From: Siphonodentalium dalli
Taxonomy: Eukaryota > Mollusca > Scaphopoda > Gadilida > Siphonodentaliidae
Assembly: GCA_032622095.1 (NCBI GenBank)
Contig: CP136062.1
Location: 228,610,578 to 228,674,577, forward strand
Direction: 5' to 3'
DNA: 64,000 nucleotides
Made by a program: the position numbers and the translations under genes. The notes under the pieces were generated by a model. It worked only from the letters and a program-made list of their open reading frames with translations. It had not been told where the DNA came from and ran no database searches. Shown here one piece after another: positions 15,167 through 58,830 of the stretch. Every line of letters starts with the position of its first letter. Position 1 is the stretch's first letter.

Positions 15167-15201
15167 TTAGCTTAACCCTTTACCCAACAGAAGGGCCCTG
15201 T

Positions 15202-15270
15202 GCCAATGCATTCTCTTATATATGCGAGTCGACCATAGGTCGCCTCGCATATATAAGAGAATGCATTGGC
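15202..15270. repeat. 69-bp hairpin module, reference copy
   Basis: Starts GCCAATGCATTCTCTTATAT and ends with the exact complement. It has a 27-bp perfect stem, one T.C mismatch, then a 5-bp inner stem closing an ATA loop (CGACC-ATA-GGTCG). The mismatch makes the module directional, and the partner at 15327-15395 is in the opposite direction. The same module occurs in copies B, C, D, E and F. It could fold as a cruciform in DNA or as a hairpin RNA of microRNA-precursor size. Confidence 0.95.
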
Positions 15271-15326
15271 TTAACACATTAAAAATTATAAAATTGTTAA
15301 AGAATGTAAGAAAAAATGTTTTTTAG

Positions 15327-15395
15327 GCCAATGCATTCTCTTATATATGCGACGCGACCTATGGTCGACTCGCATATATAAGAGAATGCATTAGC
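15327..15395. repeat. 69-bp hairpin module, second copy in element A
   Basis: Reverse orientation relative to 15202-15270, shown by the loop text GCGACCTATGGTCGA. It has GACGCGACC for GAGGCGACC and ends TTAGC for TTGGC, so it carries a few private substitutions. Confidence 0.95.
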
Positions 15396-15547
15396 ACAGG
15401 GCTAACTGTAACTATCACAATGTGGTCAAGGAGCCGGTTCCAATGATATCCATATTTGTATGGTTCTATTGAGACAGACCGAAGATATTTTAGGCTGTTG
15501 AAGCTTTATTTGGCCGGTTTTGGCCGGTTTGTTGGGTAAAGGGTTAA

Positions 15548-18171: not shown

Positions 18172-19144
18172 TTAAGGGCTTTGTGGACCCAATTTTTCAA
18201 AATTTTTATAGAGTCCAAATAAAGGATTCTGTTCATGTATATTAGTCATAATATAAACGAGCCCATTGATGCAACATTTTGAGAGTATACTTCATGGTGG
18301 ATTATGTTAGAAATACAAAATGTGAACTTTATTGAGATTTAAAAAAAAATAATTTACAGGCAATGGTCCAAGAAAAACAAAGTCCAAATCTAAGAATCAA
18401 ATATAGGAATATGTACTGAACACTGTGATGAATGATGTATTACAAAAAGAATATTATATTTCTTGAGTGTTCTTTGATAAAATGACTTTGAACCGGTTGT
18501 TGACAAATGATATATACTTGCTTGAATGTTGGCTATGTGGGTGGTAGCAGGCACGGGTTAACAGCTGGCCATTATAACTGCTCTGGACTCTGTTGACAAT
18601 AGAATGCTAATCCTCAATCATACCCCTACCAGATTTCCACAGTAATAATTCTAGTAAGTAGGTCACCACTCACTCAGGGTGAACACGCATGTGGAAGTTT
18701 GACACCTGTTGACACTGGTAAAAAGCCATTCACATCGGACTGGACATCAGCCATGAAAGGTTGACCCATTAACTGCTGCCTCTCAGTCAACCATATTATG
18801 AAGTTAGTATATCATTTGTCAACAACCGGTTCAAAGTCATTTTATCAAAGAACACTCAAGAAATATAATATTCTTTTTGTAATACATCATTCATCACAGT
18901 GTTCAGTACATATTCTCATATTTGATTCTTAAATTTGGACTTTGTTTTTCTTGGACCATTGCCTGTAAATTAATTTTTTTGAAATCTCAATAAAGTTCAC
19001 ATTTTGTATTTCTAACATAATCCACCATGAAGTATACTCTCAAAATGCTGCATCAATGGGCATAATATACATGAACAGAATCCTTTATTCTGACTCTATA
19101 AAATTTAGGGAAATTTTGGAAAAATTGGGTCCACAAAGCCCTAA
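18172..19144. mobile_element. TTAA-type foldback element, family VI
   Basis: A 973-bp element with near-identical inverted arms at 18172-18514 and 18808-19144 and a middle of about 290 bp. The outer end is TTAAGGGCTTTGTGGACCCA. The right end has CTAA in place of TTAA. It abuts element V, and the two share the CTAA/TTAA at 19141-19144. The arms contain AATAAAG motifs on both strands. No transposase frame was seen. Confidence 0.9.
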
Positions 19145-20117: not shown

Positions 20118-20355
20118 CCTTTTGAGTGCCAGGTTGATTTGTATATCAACCCATATACCCTGTGCCAATGCATTTTCTTATATATGCGAGTCGACCATAG
20201 GTCGCCTCGCATATATAAGATAATGCATTGGCCTAACATTGTTTTTTTTACAATTTTTTTTTTACAATTTTAATAATTTATTCTTATATTCTTTAACAGA
20301 CTTAGTTTGTAGGTTTAGGGCCGATGAGATCGGCACCTGGCACTCAAAGGGTTAA
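20114..20355. mobile_element. TTAA-flanked MITE with one hairpin module, family IV copy D
   Basis: A 242-bp element with ends TTAACCTTTTGAGTGCCAGG and, read inward from the right, TTAACCCTTTGAGTGCCAGG. It contains a single 69-bp hairpin module at 20164-20232. Its terminal repeats differ from family I but resemble those at 25337-25517, which lacks the module. Confidence 0.9.
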
Positions 20356-20489: not shown

Positions 20490-20895
20490 TGACTCCCACA
20501 GATTTTTTTACCCTGTGCCAAAGCATTCTCTTATTTATGCGAGTCGACCATAGGTCGCCTCGCATATATAAGAGAATGCATTGGCCTAACAATTTTTTAT
20601 CATTTTTTTTAAATAAATGTTTCTTACAAATTTTAGGAAATAAAATAAAAAACATCCATTACCCTGCAGGGAGCCCCACACATATATAGAAGCATACAGA
20701 AGAGTGTCGTCTGCTCGTGTTTGTTTGGGGCTCTGTATGGGTGAAATTATAAAATTGTTAAAGAATACAAGAAAAAGTTATTAAAATTGTAAAAAATTGT
20801 TAGGCCAATGCATTCTCTTATATATGCAAGGCGACCTATGGTCGACTCGCATATATAAGAGAATGCATTGGCACAGGGTAAAAAAATCCCGAATT
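20490..20895 (+). mobile_element. Element with two hairpin modules, copy E
   Basis: Modules at 20517-20585 and 20804-20872 in opposite orientation, framed by TTTTTTTACCCTGTGCC and GGCACAGGGTAAAAAAA. The spacer contains CCCTGCAGGGAGCCCCACAC and GTTTGGGGCTCTGTATGGG. Those two stretches are also in copy F (43944-44387), but the outer ends of F are lost or decayed here, so the borders are approximate. Confidence 0.8.
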
Positions 20896-25336: not shown

Positions 25337-25517
25337 TTAAAACCCTTTCAGTGCCAATTCCGATTTCTGTATCAACCCATATTTCCTTGATCTTTTTTCA
25401 AATTTATTGAAGAGCTCTTTCCATCAATGTAACAAATTATTATAATCAATAAATTTGAAAAATGATCAAGGAAATATGGGTTGATACAAAAATCGGACTT
25501 GGCACTGAAAGGGCTAA
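25337..25517. mobile_element. Palindromic TTAA-type MITE, family IV-like copy H
   Basis: A 181-bp near-perfect palindrome. The left end TTAAAACCCTTTCAGTGCCA leads into GATTTCTGTATCAACCCATA. The right is its complement and ends in CTAA. The subterminal text GTATCAACCCATAT is shared with element D at 20114, so the two are relatives; this one lacks the 69-bp hairpin. Confidence 0.88.
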
Positions 25518-31839: not shown

Positions 31840-32240
31840 TTAACCCTTTACCCAACAGAAGGGCCCTGTGCCAATGCATTCTCTTATATATGCGAGTCGA
31901 CCATAGGTCGCCTCGCATATATAAGAGAATGCATTGGCTTAACACATTAAAAATTATAAAATTGTTAAAGAATGTAAGAAAAAATGGTAAAAAGTGTTAA
32001 AAAAAGGATTTTTTTTAGGCCAATGCATTCTCTTATATATGCGAGGCGACCTATGGTCGACTCGCATATATAAGAGAATGCATTGGCACAGGGCATAACT
32101 GTCACTATCACAATGTAGTCAAGGAGCCGGTTCCATTGATATCCATATGTGTATGGTTCTATTGAGACAGACCGAAGATATTTTAGGCTGTTGAAGCTTT
32201 ACTTGGCCGGTTTTGGCCGGTTTGTTGGGTAAAGGGTTAA
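31840..32240 (+). mobile_element. TTAA-flanked MITE with two hairpin modules, family I copy B
   Basis: 401 bp with the same ends as copy A (TTAACCCTTTACCCAACA). Hairpin modules lie at 31870-31938 and 32019-32087. It is inserted in a unit of the 250-bp repeat. Sister units at 32571-32595 and 33762-33785 keep the uninterrupted site (..CAG-TTAA-ACTTCG and ..GAG-TTAA-ACTGCG). These show that one TTAA was the target and that it was duplicated on insertion. Confidence 0.95.
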
Positions 32241-33050: not shown

Positions 33051-33760
33051 TGATTTAAGTCTGTTTTTTCGATGTTTTGGATCATGTAATAAATATAATC
33101 TACAACTCGTCCCCAGTTTATAGCCCATCGTCCCCTCACTGCACTGTGTCACAACACAGCGACTACTAATCACTGTGTCACAACCGATCGACTACTAATC
33201 ATTTTCACAATCCATCGACTACTTATCATTTTCACAATCCATCGACTACTTATCATTTTCACAACCCATCGACTACTAATCATTTTCACAACCCATCGAC
33301 TACTAATCATTTTCACAACCCATCGACTACTAATCATTTTCACAACCCATCGACTACTTATCATTTTCACAACCCATCGACTACTTATCATTTTCACAAA
33401 AAAAACCCATCGACTACTAATCATTTTCACAACCCATCGACTACTAATCGTTTTCATAACCCATCGACTACTAATTAAGTCTGTTTTTTCGATGTTTGGA
33501 TCATGTAATAAATAGAATCTACAACTCGTCCCCAGTTTATAGCCCATCGTCTCCTCACTGCATTGTGTCACAACCCAGCGACCACTAATCATTTTCACAA
33601 CCCATCGACTACTTATCATTTTCGCAATCCATCGACTACTAATCATTTTCACAACCCATCGAATACTTATCGTTTTCGCAACCCATCGACTACTAATCAT
33701 TTTGTCACAACCATTCGACTACTAATCATTTTCACAATCCATGCACACAGACTGTCTTCG
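33051..33760. repeat. 27-bp minisatellite in two blocks with a 420-bp higher-order unit
   Basis: The unit is AATCATTTTCACAACCCATC then GACTACT. Two blocks (about 33160-33472 and 33560-33745) are each preceded by the same leader of about 120 bp, starting AAGTCTGTTTTTTCGATG at 33057 and 33477, which gives a 420-bp period. The 27-bp unit equals nine codons, so a 176-residue minus-strand frame (33170-33700) repeats MISSRWVVK. I judge it an artefact of periodicity. Confidence 0.92.
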
Positions 33761-43943: not shown

Positions 43944-44387
43944 TGTGACCCGCCATATCAAATCCAGTCGGCAGTCGGGATTGTTTTACCCTGTGCCAAT
44001 TCATTCTCTTATATATGCGAGTCGACAATATATAAGAGAATGCATTGATAACAATTTTTTATCATTTTTTAAAAATAAATGTTTCTTACAATTTTTAGGA
44101 CATAAAATAAAAAAACATCCATTACCCTGCAGGGAGCCCCACACATATATAGAAGCATATAGAAGAGTGTCGTCTGCTCACGTTTGTCTGGGGCTCTTTA
44201 TGGGTGAAATTATAAAATTGTTAAAGATTACAAGAAAAAATTATTAAAATTGTAAAAAATTGTTAGGCCAATGCATTCTCTTATATATGCGAGGCGACCT
44301 ATGGTCGACTCGCATATATAAGAGAATGCATTGGCACAGGTTAAAAAAAATCCCGACTTACGACTGGATTTGATATGGCGGGTCACA
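43944..44387 (+). mobile_element. TA-flanked element with two hairpin modules, copy F
   Basis: Terminal inverted repeats begin TGTGACCCGCCATATCAAAT and extend about 38 bp to GTCGGGATT. TA flanks both ends (43942-43943 and 44388-44389), as with Tc1/mariner-type targets. Inside are a damaged hairpin module (43995-44048, its loop deleted) and an intact one (44267-44335), with the same spacer as copy E (CCCTGCAGGGAGCCCCACAC). The terminal repeat differs from those of families I and IV. Confidence 0.88.
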
Positions 44388-54016: not shown

Positions 54017-54382
54017 TTAACCCTTTACCCAACAGAACGCCCAGAAACGCCCTAACAGCCTAAATTATCTTCGGTCTGTCTCAATAAAACCATGGAAATA
54101 TGGGTATCATTGGAACCGGCTCATTGAGCACATTGTGATAGTTACAGTTATGCCCTGTGCCAATGCATTCTCTTATATATGCGAGTCGACCATAGGTCGC
54201 CTCGCATATATAAGAGAATGCATTGGCCTAAAAAAAACTTTTTTTTAACACTTTTTTACCATTTTTTCTTTAATATGTGTTAAGCCAATGCATTCTCTTA
54301 TATATGCGAGGCGACCTATGGTCGACTCGCATATATAAGAGAATGCATTGGCACAGGGCCCTTCTGTTGGGTAAAGGGTTAA
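54017..54382 (-). mobile_element. TTAA-flanked MITE with two hairpin modules, family I copy C
   Basis: 366 bp, inverted relative to A and B: the arm with TTCGGTCTGTCTCAATAAAA is on the left. Ends are TTAACCCTTTACCCAACA and its complement. Modules lie at 54159-54227 and 54284-54352, both intact 69-mers. Confidence 0.95.
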
Positions 54383-56268: not shown

Positions 56269-56414
56269 TCTTCAACTCGTTATGTTAGGATATAAGATTT
56301 TATGAAACCCTTTCGATAAATATGATTCACAACTCGTCTACGACTCGTTGTGAATCAAAGTTATCAAACGAGTTTCATAAAATCTTATATCCCATGCAAC
56401 GTAACTCGTTGGAG
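56269..56414. mobile_element. 146-bp palindromic MITE at the LINE 5' edge
   Basis: Left TCTTCAACTCGTTATGTTAG with ATATAAGATTTTATGAAAC. The right side is its complement (GTTTCATAAAATCTTATAT then AACGTAACTCGTTGGAGA). The inner arms ATTCACAACTCGT/ACGACTCGTTGTGAAT meet at the centre. The open frame of the following LINE fragment starts inside this MITE, so its first 30 or so residues are not LINE sequence. Confidence 0.88.
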
Positions 56415-57054
56415 ATCCTCTGTATCTTGACAAACATGCGTGGAGCATCTAAAATACTCGAAAAACTAATGCAAAAACGTTTAGTTGATTTTCTTAATGA
56501 ATCGGACATCGTATTGAAACATCAGTACGGATTTCGCCCTAACCATTCAACTTATCATCCCTTCATTCATCTACTGGATCATATTGTGAACAATAACGAC
56601 AAGCCCACGAAAGATTCTACCATAACCCTTTTTCTTGATCTGTCCAAAGCTTTTGACACAATAAACCACGACATCTTATTTACAAAAATGGAACATTATG
56701 GAATTAGAGGCATGGCAAGCGAAAGATTTCGAAGCTATCTCAATGAGAGACGACAATACGTAGAATGCAATGGACGTAAGTCAAATCTCTTTAAAACTTT
56801 ATGTGGTGTTCCTCAAGGACCATTACTCGGGCCCATAATTGTTCTCCTCTACGTGAACGATATGTAAAATGCAACTACTATGGAACCGTTATCATATGCC
56901 GACGATACAACCCTTATGGACAGTGGACAAAATGAGGCGTTAATCCAAAGTTATGTCAATAACGAATTAAGAAATCTATCTGACTGGTGTTGCTGTAACA
57001 AACTAGCCATCAATGATAACGAGCAATTATATGCTCTTGGAGTCACAAAACAAT
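56415..57054 (+). pseudogene. LINE reverse transcriptase, 5'-truncated fragment (host LINE, part 1)
   Basis: Non-LTR reverse transcriptase of CR1/Jockey type, which copies element RNA into DNA at a nicked target. Visible motifs in order are SKILEKLMQKRL, HQYGFRPNHST, FLDLSKAFDTINHDIL (motif A, Asp at about 56637), YGIRG, GVPQGPLLGP (motif B, at about 56805, Pro where Ser is usual), VNDM, and YADDTTL at 56895-56915 (motif C, both catalytic Asp present). One in-frame TAA (56865-56867) separates motifs B and C; a second stop follows KQ at about 57052. The endonuclease and N-terminal RT are missing, and the thumb and C-terminus are absent here. The likely continuation is at 59461-60105. Dead copy. 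Confidence 0.9.
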
Positions 57055-57109: not shown

Positions 57110-58830
57110 ATGACTAAATTACAAAGTACAGTGGAACATTTTTCTTCATTCTTACCTACACCATGTAATGAAACACTTTATTCCCGCCCTACTACACCAG
57201 AAGAATTACAAAGAATGGTATCTTCTTGTAAAGTAAAACATAGCACAGACTGTGATGGTCTTACTTATCCACTGATGAAGAGTGTCATAAATGAAATTTC
57301 CCAACCTCTAAGCTATATTATTAATCTATCTGTGGAAACTGGAATTATTCCTGATCCCTTTATTTAAATCTGGAGATCCAAAAATGTTATAAAATTATCG
57401 CCCTATTAGTATTCTTCCTACATTTTCAAAAATCTTAGAAACAATTGTCTGTTTAAGACTTGTCGAATTTCTTAACAAGCATGATGCCCTCTATCACAAT
57501 CAATATGGATTTCGCAAAGAGCCCTCTACAATTCACCCGATACTGAAGTTAATTAACGACGTGGGTCTAAATAATGATATGAAAACAAAAGATTGTACAC
57601 TCTCTGCTTTTATCGACTTCTCCAAAGCTTTTGATACAATAAACCACAAAATTCTATTAAAAAAACTTGTAACCTATGGAATAAGAAGCAAAGCCAATCA
57701 TTGGTTTATAAATTATGTGGATCTAGAAGGTAGGGTTTCATCTAAACTTCCCATTAACATGGAGTCCCCCAGGGATCTGTGGCTGGGCCGATTCTCTTTT
57801 TGATTTCTGTAAACGATATGCACAAATCTACTGCCTTGTCATTGTTATCTTTTGTAGATGACACCACTGTGTACTCCTCAAACCATAACCTTGATTATTT
57901 CTATGACAACTTTAACAATGAACTTGCAAAACTAAGTAAATAGGCTATCACTAAACACTAAAAAAAACAAAATATATGCTGATACAACCTAAAAATGGCC
58001 CATATATAGTTGGAAATCACACACTAACTATAAACGGAGAGCAAGATAAGAATTGGAGTAGACTGTCAGGAGAAATCATTTAAGTTTCTTGGAATACACA
58101 TTGATGAACACCTATCATTCGAACATCACGTGAAAGCTATTTGTGCAAAAATTAGTAACTCCTTATATGCTATAAATCGAGTAAAAAGTTCCCCCCGTTT
58201 GACTATCTCGGTATGCTGTATCTTACATTAGTACACTCCCATATTCTCTATGAAATTGAGCTATGGGGCAATGCCCGTACCCACAACCAAGTTGTTGTTT
58301 TACAGAAAAAAGCTATCCGAGCCATTAACAAAAAAACGCTACAATAGCCATACTGAACCTTTATTTAAAACTAACAACATTTTGAAATTACAAGACCTTT
58401 AGATGCAACGGGTATGCCTTTATATGCACAACTGGATGAATACCAACCTCCACAAGTCATGTAATAACAGCTTTAGCATATAAATACACCCGAGTATGAA
58501 TACCAGATCAACAGGCAAAATTCGAGAAACAAAAATCACGAATTAAATTCACAGACAAATTGCCTCTCCATGTTTTTGCGAAAACCTGGAATAATCTTAA
58601 TAAGGCTACCCAAAATATTCGACCTAAGTCGGCCTTTGTGAACCACATTTCTAAGACAATTATTGGGAATTATTCACTGACTGTTAAATGCACAAACCAA
58701 TTTTGTCCAGATTGCTCAACATTAACACAGCTCACTATGTATTTTGGTACTAAACGGAAAAAAGAATACGTCAATATAAGTCGTACCTCACTTATTTGCG
58801 ATATGATTTTAGATTTTTGATTTCTTATTA
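57110..58830 (+). pseudogene. Reverse transcriptase ORF of second LINE, frameshifted
   Basis: Reading across frames, PTTPEELQRMVSSCKVKHST and DGLTYPLMK (57190-57290) are followed by a frameshift near 57361. Then come NYRPISILPTFSKILE, NQYGFRKEPST, FIDFSKAFDTINHKIL (motif A at 57609-57635), a frameshift near 57755, and GVPQGSVAGPILF (from 57761). FVDDTTVYS (57851-57877) is motif C, with FVDD where FADD or YADD is usual. Downstream are FLGIHIDEHLSFEHHVKAIC (about 58085) and a C-terminal LPLHVFAKTWNNLNKAT. It ends with VKCTNQFCPDC (about 58683-58715), a C-x4-C-x2-C arrangement. Multiple stops; nonfunctional. Confidence 0.88.

Follow-up and report, generated by a model that had tools for sequence, protein, structure and literature searches.

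A near-perfect 69-nt hairpin close to the tips of at least four families of miniature transposons with different ends

The 64-kb window analysed here (the whole stretch of 64,000 nucleotides, lying within contig C2 of a 2.23 Gb genome in nine contigs) contains the same 69-nt hairpin in elements whose surrounding sequences differ, which raises the question of how a single structure came to be common to them. An earlier note on this DNA had offered three answers, namely a mobile or hitch-hiking unit of its own, a required structural part of several transposons, or a source of hairpin RNA. Every hairpin site listed in that note was found in the window, with the architecture described there: a 27-bp stem, one T.C mismatch, a 5-bp inner stem and an ATA loop. 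The two copies of a pair point towards each other, also as described, and are framed by CCCTGTGCC/GGCACAGGG.

The 69-mer at 15202 has a predicted folding energy of -54.3 kcal/mol as RNA (z -14.3) and of -35.4 as DNA (z -15.6). The half-arm GCCAATGCATTCTCTTATATATGCGAG was detected at 22 sites in the window at up to three mismatches, and at none in 100 shuffles. The orientation of the module is fixed, with T on the outer side and C on the inner side; the outer CCCTGT belongs to the module (D2 ends have TCCTGT instead), and YTAACA is usual on its inner side. The elements that carry the hairpin, together with one hairpin-less relative, are given in Table 1. Two of the previously listed sites need a different description. 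The presumed remnant at 1714 is, as judged by eye, an old family D element in which both hairpins are worn, and the hairpin at 20164 is present but sits in an element with one hairpin (family B).

Table 1. Hairpin-bearing elements of the 64-kb window and a hairpin-less relative
Feature	Position	Strand	Remarks
Old family D element, two worn hairpins	1649-1886 (about)	+	Limits by eye
Family A element	15176-15543	+	TTAA at 15172-15175 and 15544-15547; tips CCCTTTACCCAACA/TGTTGGGTAAAGGG
Hairpin module 1 of that A element	15202-15270	+	Outer side left; tip 26 bp away
Hairpin module 2 of that A element	15327-15395	-	Reversed; ~149 bp (consensus) to the other tip
Family B element	20118-20351	+	TTAA on both sides; single hairpin 20164-20232
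Family C core	20501-20890	+	Hairpins 20517-20585 and 20804-20872; on each side the outer C end is worn or lost
B0, hairpin-less sister of family B	25343-25513	+	Outer 40 bp as in B, then TTCCTTGATC
Family A element	31844-32236	+	Hairpins 31870-31938 and 32019-32087
Family C element	43945-44386	+	GTGACCC ends, ATAT duplication; hairpin 43995 damaged, 44267-44335 intact
Family A element	54021-54378	-	Hairpins 54159-54227 and 54284-54352

The window also contains an inverted repeat at 18261-19061 (254 nt, 98% complementary, arms 293 nt apart), reverse transcriptase fragments (RVT_1) at 56289-56867 and 57393-57803, and open frames on both strands at 33099-33718 that derive from a short tandem repeat (HRLLIIFT / KMISSRWV).

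The hairpin occurs in no fewer than four families of non-autonomous miniature transposons, here named A, B, C and D. Family A has tips CCCTTTACCCAACA and two facing hairpins in its left half, with lengths of 358-393 bp in the window. Family B has tips CCCTTT(G/C)AGTGCCAGG and one hairpin ~46 bp from one tip, and family C, with tips GTGACCCGCCATATCAAATCCAG, has two hairpins within long inverted ends (consensus 458 bp). Family D has two unlike ends, CCCTTCCATGACTGGAGC.. and CCCTTTCATGATGGGAGC.., with a hairpin ~44-46 bp from each tip and a 27-nt spacer; it is older, with a divergence of ~9% per copy. The spacing from hairpin to tip thus varies, from 26 to ~51 bp at the near ends to 149 bp at A2. 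As read from the sequence, A, B and C partly resemble one another in their AT-rich inner segments (ACAATTTTAATAATTT..TTCTT..TTCTTTAACA).

A terminal CCYT motif is present in A, B and D (CCCTTTACCC, CCCTTT(G/C)AGTGCC and CCCTT(C/T)CATGA, respectively). Elements of these three families are short (~230-450 bp in most copies), with no coding frame as judged by size only, and a TTAA duplication was found at 46/52 A tips, 16/21 B/B0 tips and 17/28 D tips, the remainder being different. By their TTAA and CCCTT-type tips, A, B and D are piggyBac/TTAA-type MITEs. Family C has GTGACCC tips and no TTAA, with an exact 4-bp AWWT duplication in 7/10 elements, and its left and right flanks agree in 88% when matched, against 74% in mismatched pairs. 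Because of the AWWT duplication, this family was not filed as piggyBac. In the C copies L113, L122, L125 and L132, as well as in the window copy at 20517, the outer end is missing on one side, and the break lies at or near the T-run beside ACCCTGT.

Genome-wide, the exact half-arm was counted 270,242 times (135,135 + 135,107; reversed control, 0) and the outer 39-mer (CCCTGT-arm-TCGACC) 112,167 times. The mismatched core of the type seen in the window, GAGTCGACCATAGGTCGCCTC, gave 126,837 exact occurrences and a second, older core type (D; TCTCCC-ATA-GGGAGC) gave 10,120, or 136,957 for both types together; part of these core and half-arm counts comes from tandem arrays, so the copies are not all separate insertions. 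Other apex forms were mainly D cores and one-sided changes, as judged by eye from the 100 matches listed of 9,329. One long tandem array (G000:C1:820000-926300) has hairpins every ~11.17 kb, with one step of 11.4, and a second hairpin series near 742-771 kb advances in steps of ~14.56 kb. At L017 (G000:C1:541701-545100), D hairpins occur in a 97-nt tandem array and the D tip TTAACCCTTCCATGACTGGAGTTACCTCCC in a 33-nt array.

The DNA sampled for closer comparison comprised the window, ten 10-kb stretches at round-number positions, 20 stretches picked by the half-arm, 20 by the outer 39-mer, 20 by the D core and 40 by the C tip alone, and three C-end stretches with no listed hairpin core nearby. 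Most stretches were therefore picked by hairpin, C tip or D core, and the sample is not a genome-wide census. Hairpin arms were present in 2/10 of the round-number stretches.

The consensus hairpins of the end types A1, A2, B, C1 and C2 (n = 23, 21, 12, 53 and 19; the C1 and C2 labels rest on a loose motif) are identical over 69/69 positions, while beyond CCCTGT their outer flanks are unrelated, which bears out the claim that the module is common to families with unrelated ends. The D1 and D2 consensus hairpins (n = 14 and 13) differ from that of A, B and C at 5/69 and 6/69 positions, respectively, and the deviations fall at pairs 5, 8, 30 and 31. Pairs 30 and 31 are compensated in D, as is pair 5 in D2 (A-T to G-C), and pair 8 is unpaired in D1. 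The T.C mismatch (pair 28) is kept in 7/7 end types. Compensation of pairs is clear between families and at most slight among D copies.

Three observations bear on how different ends came to surround this common core. B and its sister B0 are alike over the outer 40 bp and then diverge, with TTCCTTGATC in B0 and ACCCTGTGCC followed by the hairpin in B. Three B copies, two of which represent one insertion, agreed with B0 at 39, 39 and 40 of the 40 outer bases and at 6 of the next 20; two further copies agreed at 38, and two indel-offset copies at 23 and 20 in this ungapped comparison. The B0 junction 23-mer occurs 9,359 times. The second observation is an A/C chimera, L099, in which the A tip is followed by a C end that runs as far as ACCCTGT, then by a hairpin, an A spacer, a second hairpin and a partial A2 flank. 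This structure is what would be expected from the insertion of a C element followed by recombination between hairpins, and it was the one hairpin-joined chimera seen. Third, C cores hold a stretch resembling a TTAA element (TTCACCCATACAGAGCCCC), relatives of which adjoin C copies elsewhere. Together, the B0 border, the chimera and the TTAA-like stretch in C cores suggest that ends have been joined to a common core.

A stretch like TTAACCCATAGAGAGCCCC was also seen to adjoin the C end at L092, L101, L115, L129 and L131. At L101 it follows directly after the hairpin flank, and a relative makes up the middle of the C core.

On balance, the hairpin is a subterminal module of at least four non-autonomous families, and it probably became common to them through recombination of ends and core and not by moving on its own. 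The near-identical hairpin, in more than 100,000 copies, would offer the homology at which ends are swapped by recombination or template switching. The master copies that propagate would have retained the hairpin because it acts in cis, most likely as a palindrome to which a transposase domain or a host protein binds. The binding-site role is favoured because piggyBac-type transposases bind subterminal palindromes through their C-terminal domains, according to PMC11707139. The proposal of a required structural part of several transposons comes near to this best reading, in that the hairpin is part of several transposons, with "required" being putative.

Families A, B and D would be mobilised by the piggyBac transposases of the genome, and C by a different transposase. 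Open piggyBac transposase frames gave 128 matches in the genome, some with TTAACCCTTT tips. Among the 34 copies scanned (4 + 20 + 10), none had a hairpin arm at up to seven mismatches or an A, B or D tip beyond CCCTTT in flanks that may stop short of the end of the element. Given the lack of a hairpin arm in these flanks, mobilisation in trans is probable for A, B and D.

Several points count against the preferred reading. The constraint signal described below falls short of significance in C alone, and the A copies were mostly picked by their hairpin; B0 has spread without a hairpin, and there is one hairpin-joined chimera only. The absence of a hairpin arm from the scanned flanks of the 34 transposase copies also speaks against the reading. 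The variable spacing between hairpin and tip is odd for a single transposase site, and a binding site for a piggyBac transposase leaves family C unexplained. The 5/69 difference between D1 and A could also be explained by shared recent descent without selection.

A possible though doubtful alternative is that the hairpin has no function and is old internal sequence of one successful MITE core, captured several times by different ends, shortly before each burst of amplification. The identity of the hairpins would then reflect recency and copy number only. Mutations in A and C bear on this alternative. The A alignment comprised 25 elements, mostly picked via the hairpin, with L018, L012 and L028 omitted as near copies of other loci, and L009 and the second L079 element missed by the end pattern. 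The C alignment comprised 33 elements, 23 from the 40 C-tip stretches and 10 from earlier samples (9 of them picked via the hairpin); the remaining 17 C-tip stretches had no element with both C ends under the end and orientation rules. Near copies were removed from the C counts (L105, L106 and, for mutation counts, L098, leaving 30 elements).

Private changes in C affected 46/3990 cells in the hairpin and 91/5943 outside (p 0.11). They are thus not clearly rarer in the hairpin, from which it follows that dead single copies decay freely, unprotected. In A, the corresponding counts were 19/2818 and 45/3949 (p 0.056), among copies mostly picked by the hairpin. The comparison of module and flank divergence proposed in the earlier note thus gives a split outcome: the two do not clearly differ within C, whereas from one family to another an unchanged hairpin stands beside unrelated outer flanks. 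Columns with shared variants were 6/138 in the hairpin versus 15/200 outside for C (p 0.26) and 1/138 versus 12/185 for A (p 0.009). For C, this masked count replaced one made without masking of A/T runs, which had given 0.18% in the arms versus 1.31%. When A and C were pooled, with four terminal C columns excluded, columns with a variant in at least three copies numbered 1/276 in the hairpin and 13/381 in the rest (p 0.006), at a threshold set post hoc after the list had been inspected; for C alone the p value was 0.41. These patterns are moderate evidence for constraint acting on master copies, and they are also compatible with recency or chance.

A hairpin with no function would agree with the low divergence of the A, B and C hairpin regions, which are only ~2-3.5% per copy off their consensus, with the private mutations of C, and with the older family D (~9% per copy), in which the hairpin is already 5 (D1) or 6 (D2) of 69 positions off. 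It accords less well with the scarcity of variants in at least three copies, with the compensation of pairs 5, 30 and 31 and the retention of the T.C mismatch in all seven end types, and with the recurrence of the module at 26-51 bp from a tip in all four families.

Rather unlikely, in our estimate, is that the hairpin is a portable amplification signal across transposon superfamilies, lifting any ends that acquire it to very high copy numbers. If true, it would act on a step common to TTAA- and AWWT-type elements and not on one transposase, for example through a host protein, replication timing or cruciform-driven gap repair.

That gene conversion or self-repair of the palindrome keeps the hairpins alike in single copies is improbable. 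Deletions at or within the arms were observed in L011, L012, L014, L019 and L115, as expected of an unstable palindrome, and the private changes of A are somewhat fewer in the hairpin, albeit in copies mostly picked by it. D copies differ from their consensus by a mean of 7-8% in the arms and 18-25% in the flanks, with arms matched by pattern and the flank figure inflated by indels since it is ungapped. Pairs changed on both sides were 10 in D, compared with 5.1 expected, and 6/10 were still paired. These results are in line with repair, but most changed D pairs are one-sided (80, of which 62 were broken, 17 wobble and 1 still paired), and the private mutations of C are not clearly rarer in the hairpin. 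In addition, the degenerate core pattern was found 128,369 times and the mismatched form 126,837 times, a difference of only 1.2%, which argues that the T.C mismatch is not being repaired.

Selection of the module as RNA, with the stem transcribed and then diced into small RNAs that help the element or serving to protect the transcript, is likewise given a low probability. The 69-nt RNA hairpin is predicted to be very stable and each arm has a TATATAAG box-like octamer, as read from the sequence. Against this, no Rfam family matched at gathering score in the window, and the loop is 3 nt.

The independent mobile or hitch-hiking unit of the earlier note, either the hairpin or a hairpin pair with its spacer inserted into several elements, is very unlikely. 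The border at CCCTGT is sharp in all families and B has a hairpin-less sister, both of which speak for such a unit. However, no orphan hairpin was found among 22 elements in 20 stretches (A, 10; C, 7; B, 4; D, 1), which are not all independent, as L088/L090 are one duplicated insertion with common flanks and L077 repeats L028. The sampled DNA contained 186 full hairpins, with a known outer flank in 164, a known inner flank only in 21 (including array units and copies lacking the outer end) and neither in 1, so that 185/186 are bordered by A-D sequence on one or both sides; the sole hairpin with no motif-matched flank is D-like by eye. This count was made without requiring CCCTGT; an earlier count that required it had left 14/169 unassigned to an end type. 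Hairpin arms were present in 40/40 of the stretches picked by the C tip alone. The border of the module showed no target duplication. That an A element received the module by insertion was considered and is unsupported, since no exact hairpin-less A joint was found; at two mismatches there were 8 matches, and 1 in the reversed control.

The three C-end stretches picked for having no listed core nearby comprised L095 and L096, with outer half arms, and L097, with a remnant only. L095 (G000:C1:4495900-4497800) and L096 have half-armed C-type ends around GC-rich repeats and are 94.6% alike. A Bcl-2 family frame lies between the C-type ends of L095 (Pfam Bcl-2, E 9.6e-11), as if a gene had been captured.

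It is scarcely credible that all copies belong to one family with outer ends merely decayed, the outcome that the earlier note named as fatal to its idea: A, B and C do have related AT-rich segments on the inner side, but in each family many copies show well-conserved ends and a duplication type particular to it, and the C tip 23-mer alone has 19,513 exact occurrences in the genome. These counts refute the single-family reading.

How new MITE families originate and reach huge copy numbers becomes a testable question with a defined 69-nt module. The same genome offers hairpin-less sister ends and at least one chimera, with which it can be asked whether the module raises mobility and whether ends swap. 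For repeat annotation, the results are a warning that a common core is no guarantee of a common superfamily.

The closest known case is that of the Acropora coral CMITEs, TTAA non-autonomous families with an estimated ~1,600 copies (PMC2872659). As described there, they resemble the elements studied here in having differing CCCTT-type tips, a common inner region better conserved than the tips, for which a role was proposed, and tandem arrays. The pattern of unlike tips around a better-conserved inside was found here (69/69 in five end types), and no convincing homologue of the inner sequence was found in the sampled loci: the published CMITE 60-mer gave a single 14-nt match (E 0.048), in the hairpin-less L007, while the 69-mer, as a positive control, gave 532 matches. 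The CMITE 60-mer folds no better than its shuffles (z -0.65), and the terms "hairpin", "palindrom-", "secondary structure" and "stem" are absent from the main text of PMC2872659. Coral CMITEs provide a published precedent for a conserved inner part between ends that diverge, though one that lacks the hairpin.

According to the description in PMC11707139, the transposases of piggyBac and piggyBat use paired C-terminal domains to bind palindromes in subterminal position. As in the present elements, the palindromic sites are between a few and some tens of bp away from the tip; piggyBat has them at its left end only, and in piggyBac the distances are unequal. These palindromes measure 14-19 bp and belong to one element, whereas the palindrome described here measures 69 bp and occurs in several families, with 0/34 of the scanned transposase genes carrying it. 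No match to the module sequences was found in open-licence papers, to the 27-mer in viral contigs or to the hairpin in prokaryote genomes, and topic and sequence searches of the open-licence literature returned no hairpin module common to families of two duplication types.

Like MITEs in general, the elements studied here are short, non-coding as judged by size, present in high copy number and probably moved in trans. Internal MITE sequence may alter transposition, as in a Stowaway case cited in PMC11707139 and an enhancer case cited in PMC2872659, and is normally family-specific as outlined in PMC2872659, whereas the present module spans families. In the CMITEs, described as TTAA elements with ~1,600 copies, the inside is a 75-bp stretch (PMC2872659); here it is a near-perfect hairpin of 69 nt that occurs once or twice per element in subterminal position, reaches more than 130,000 copies and extends to a non-TTAA family too.
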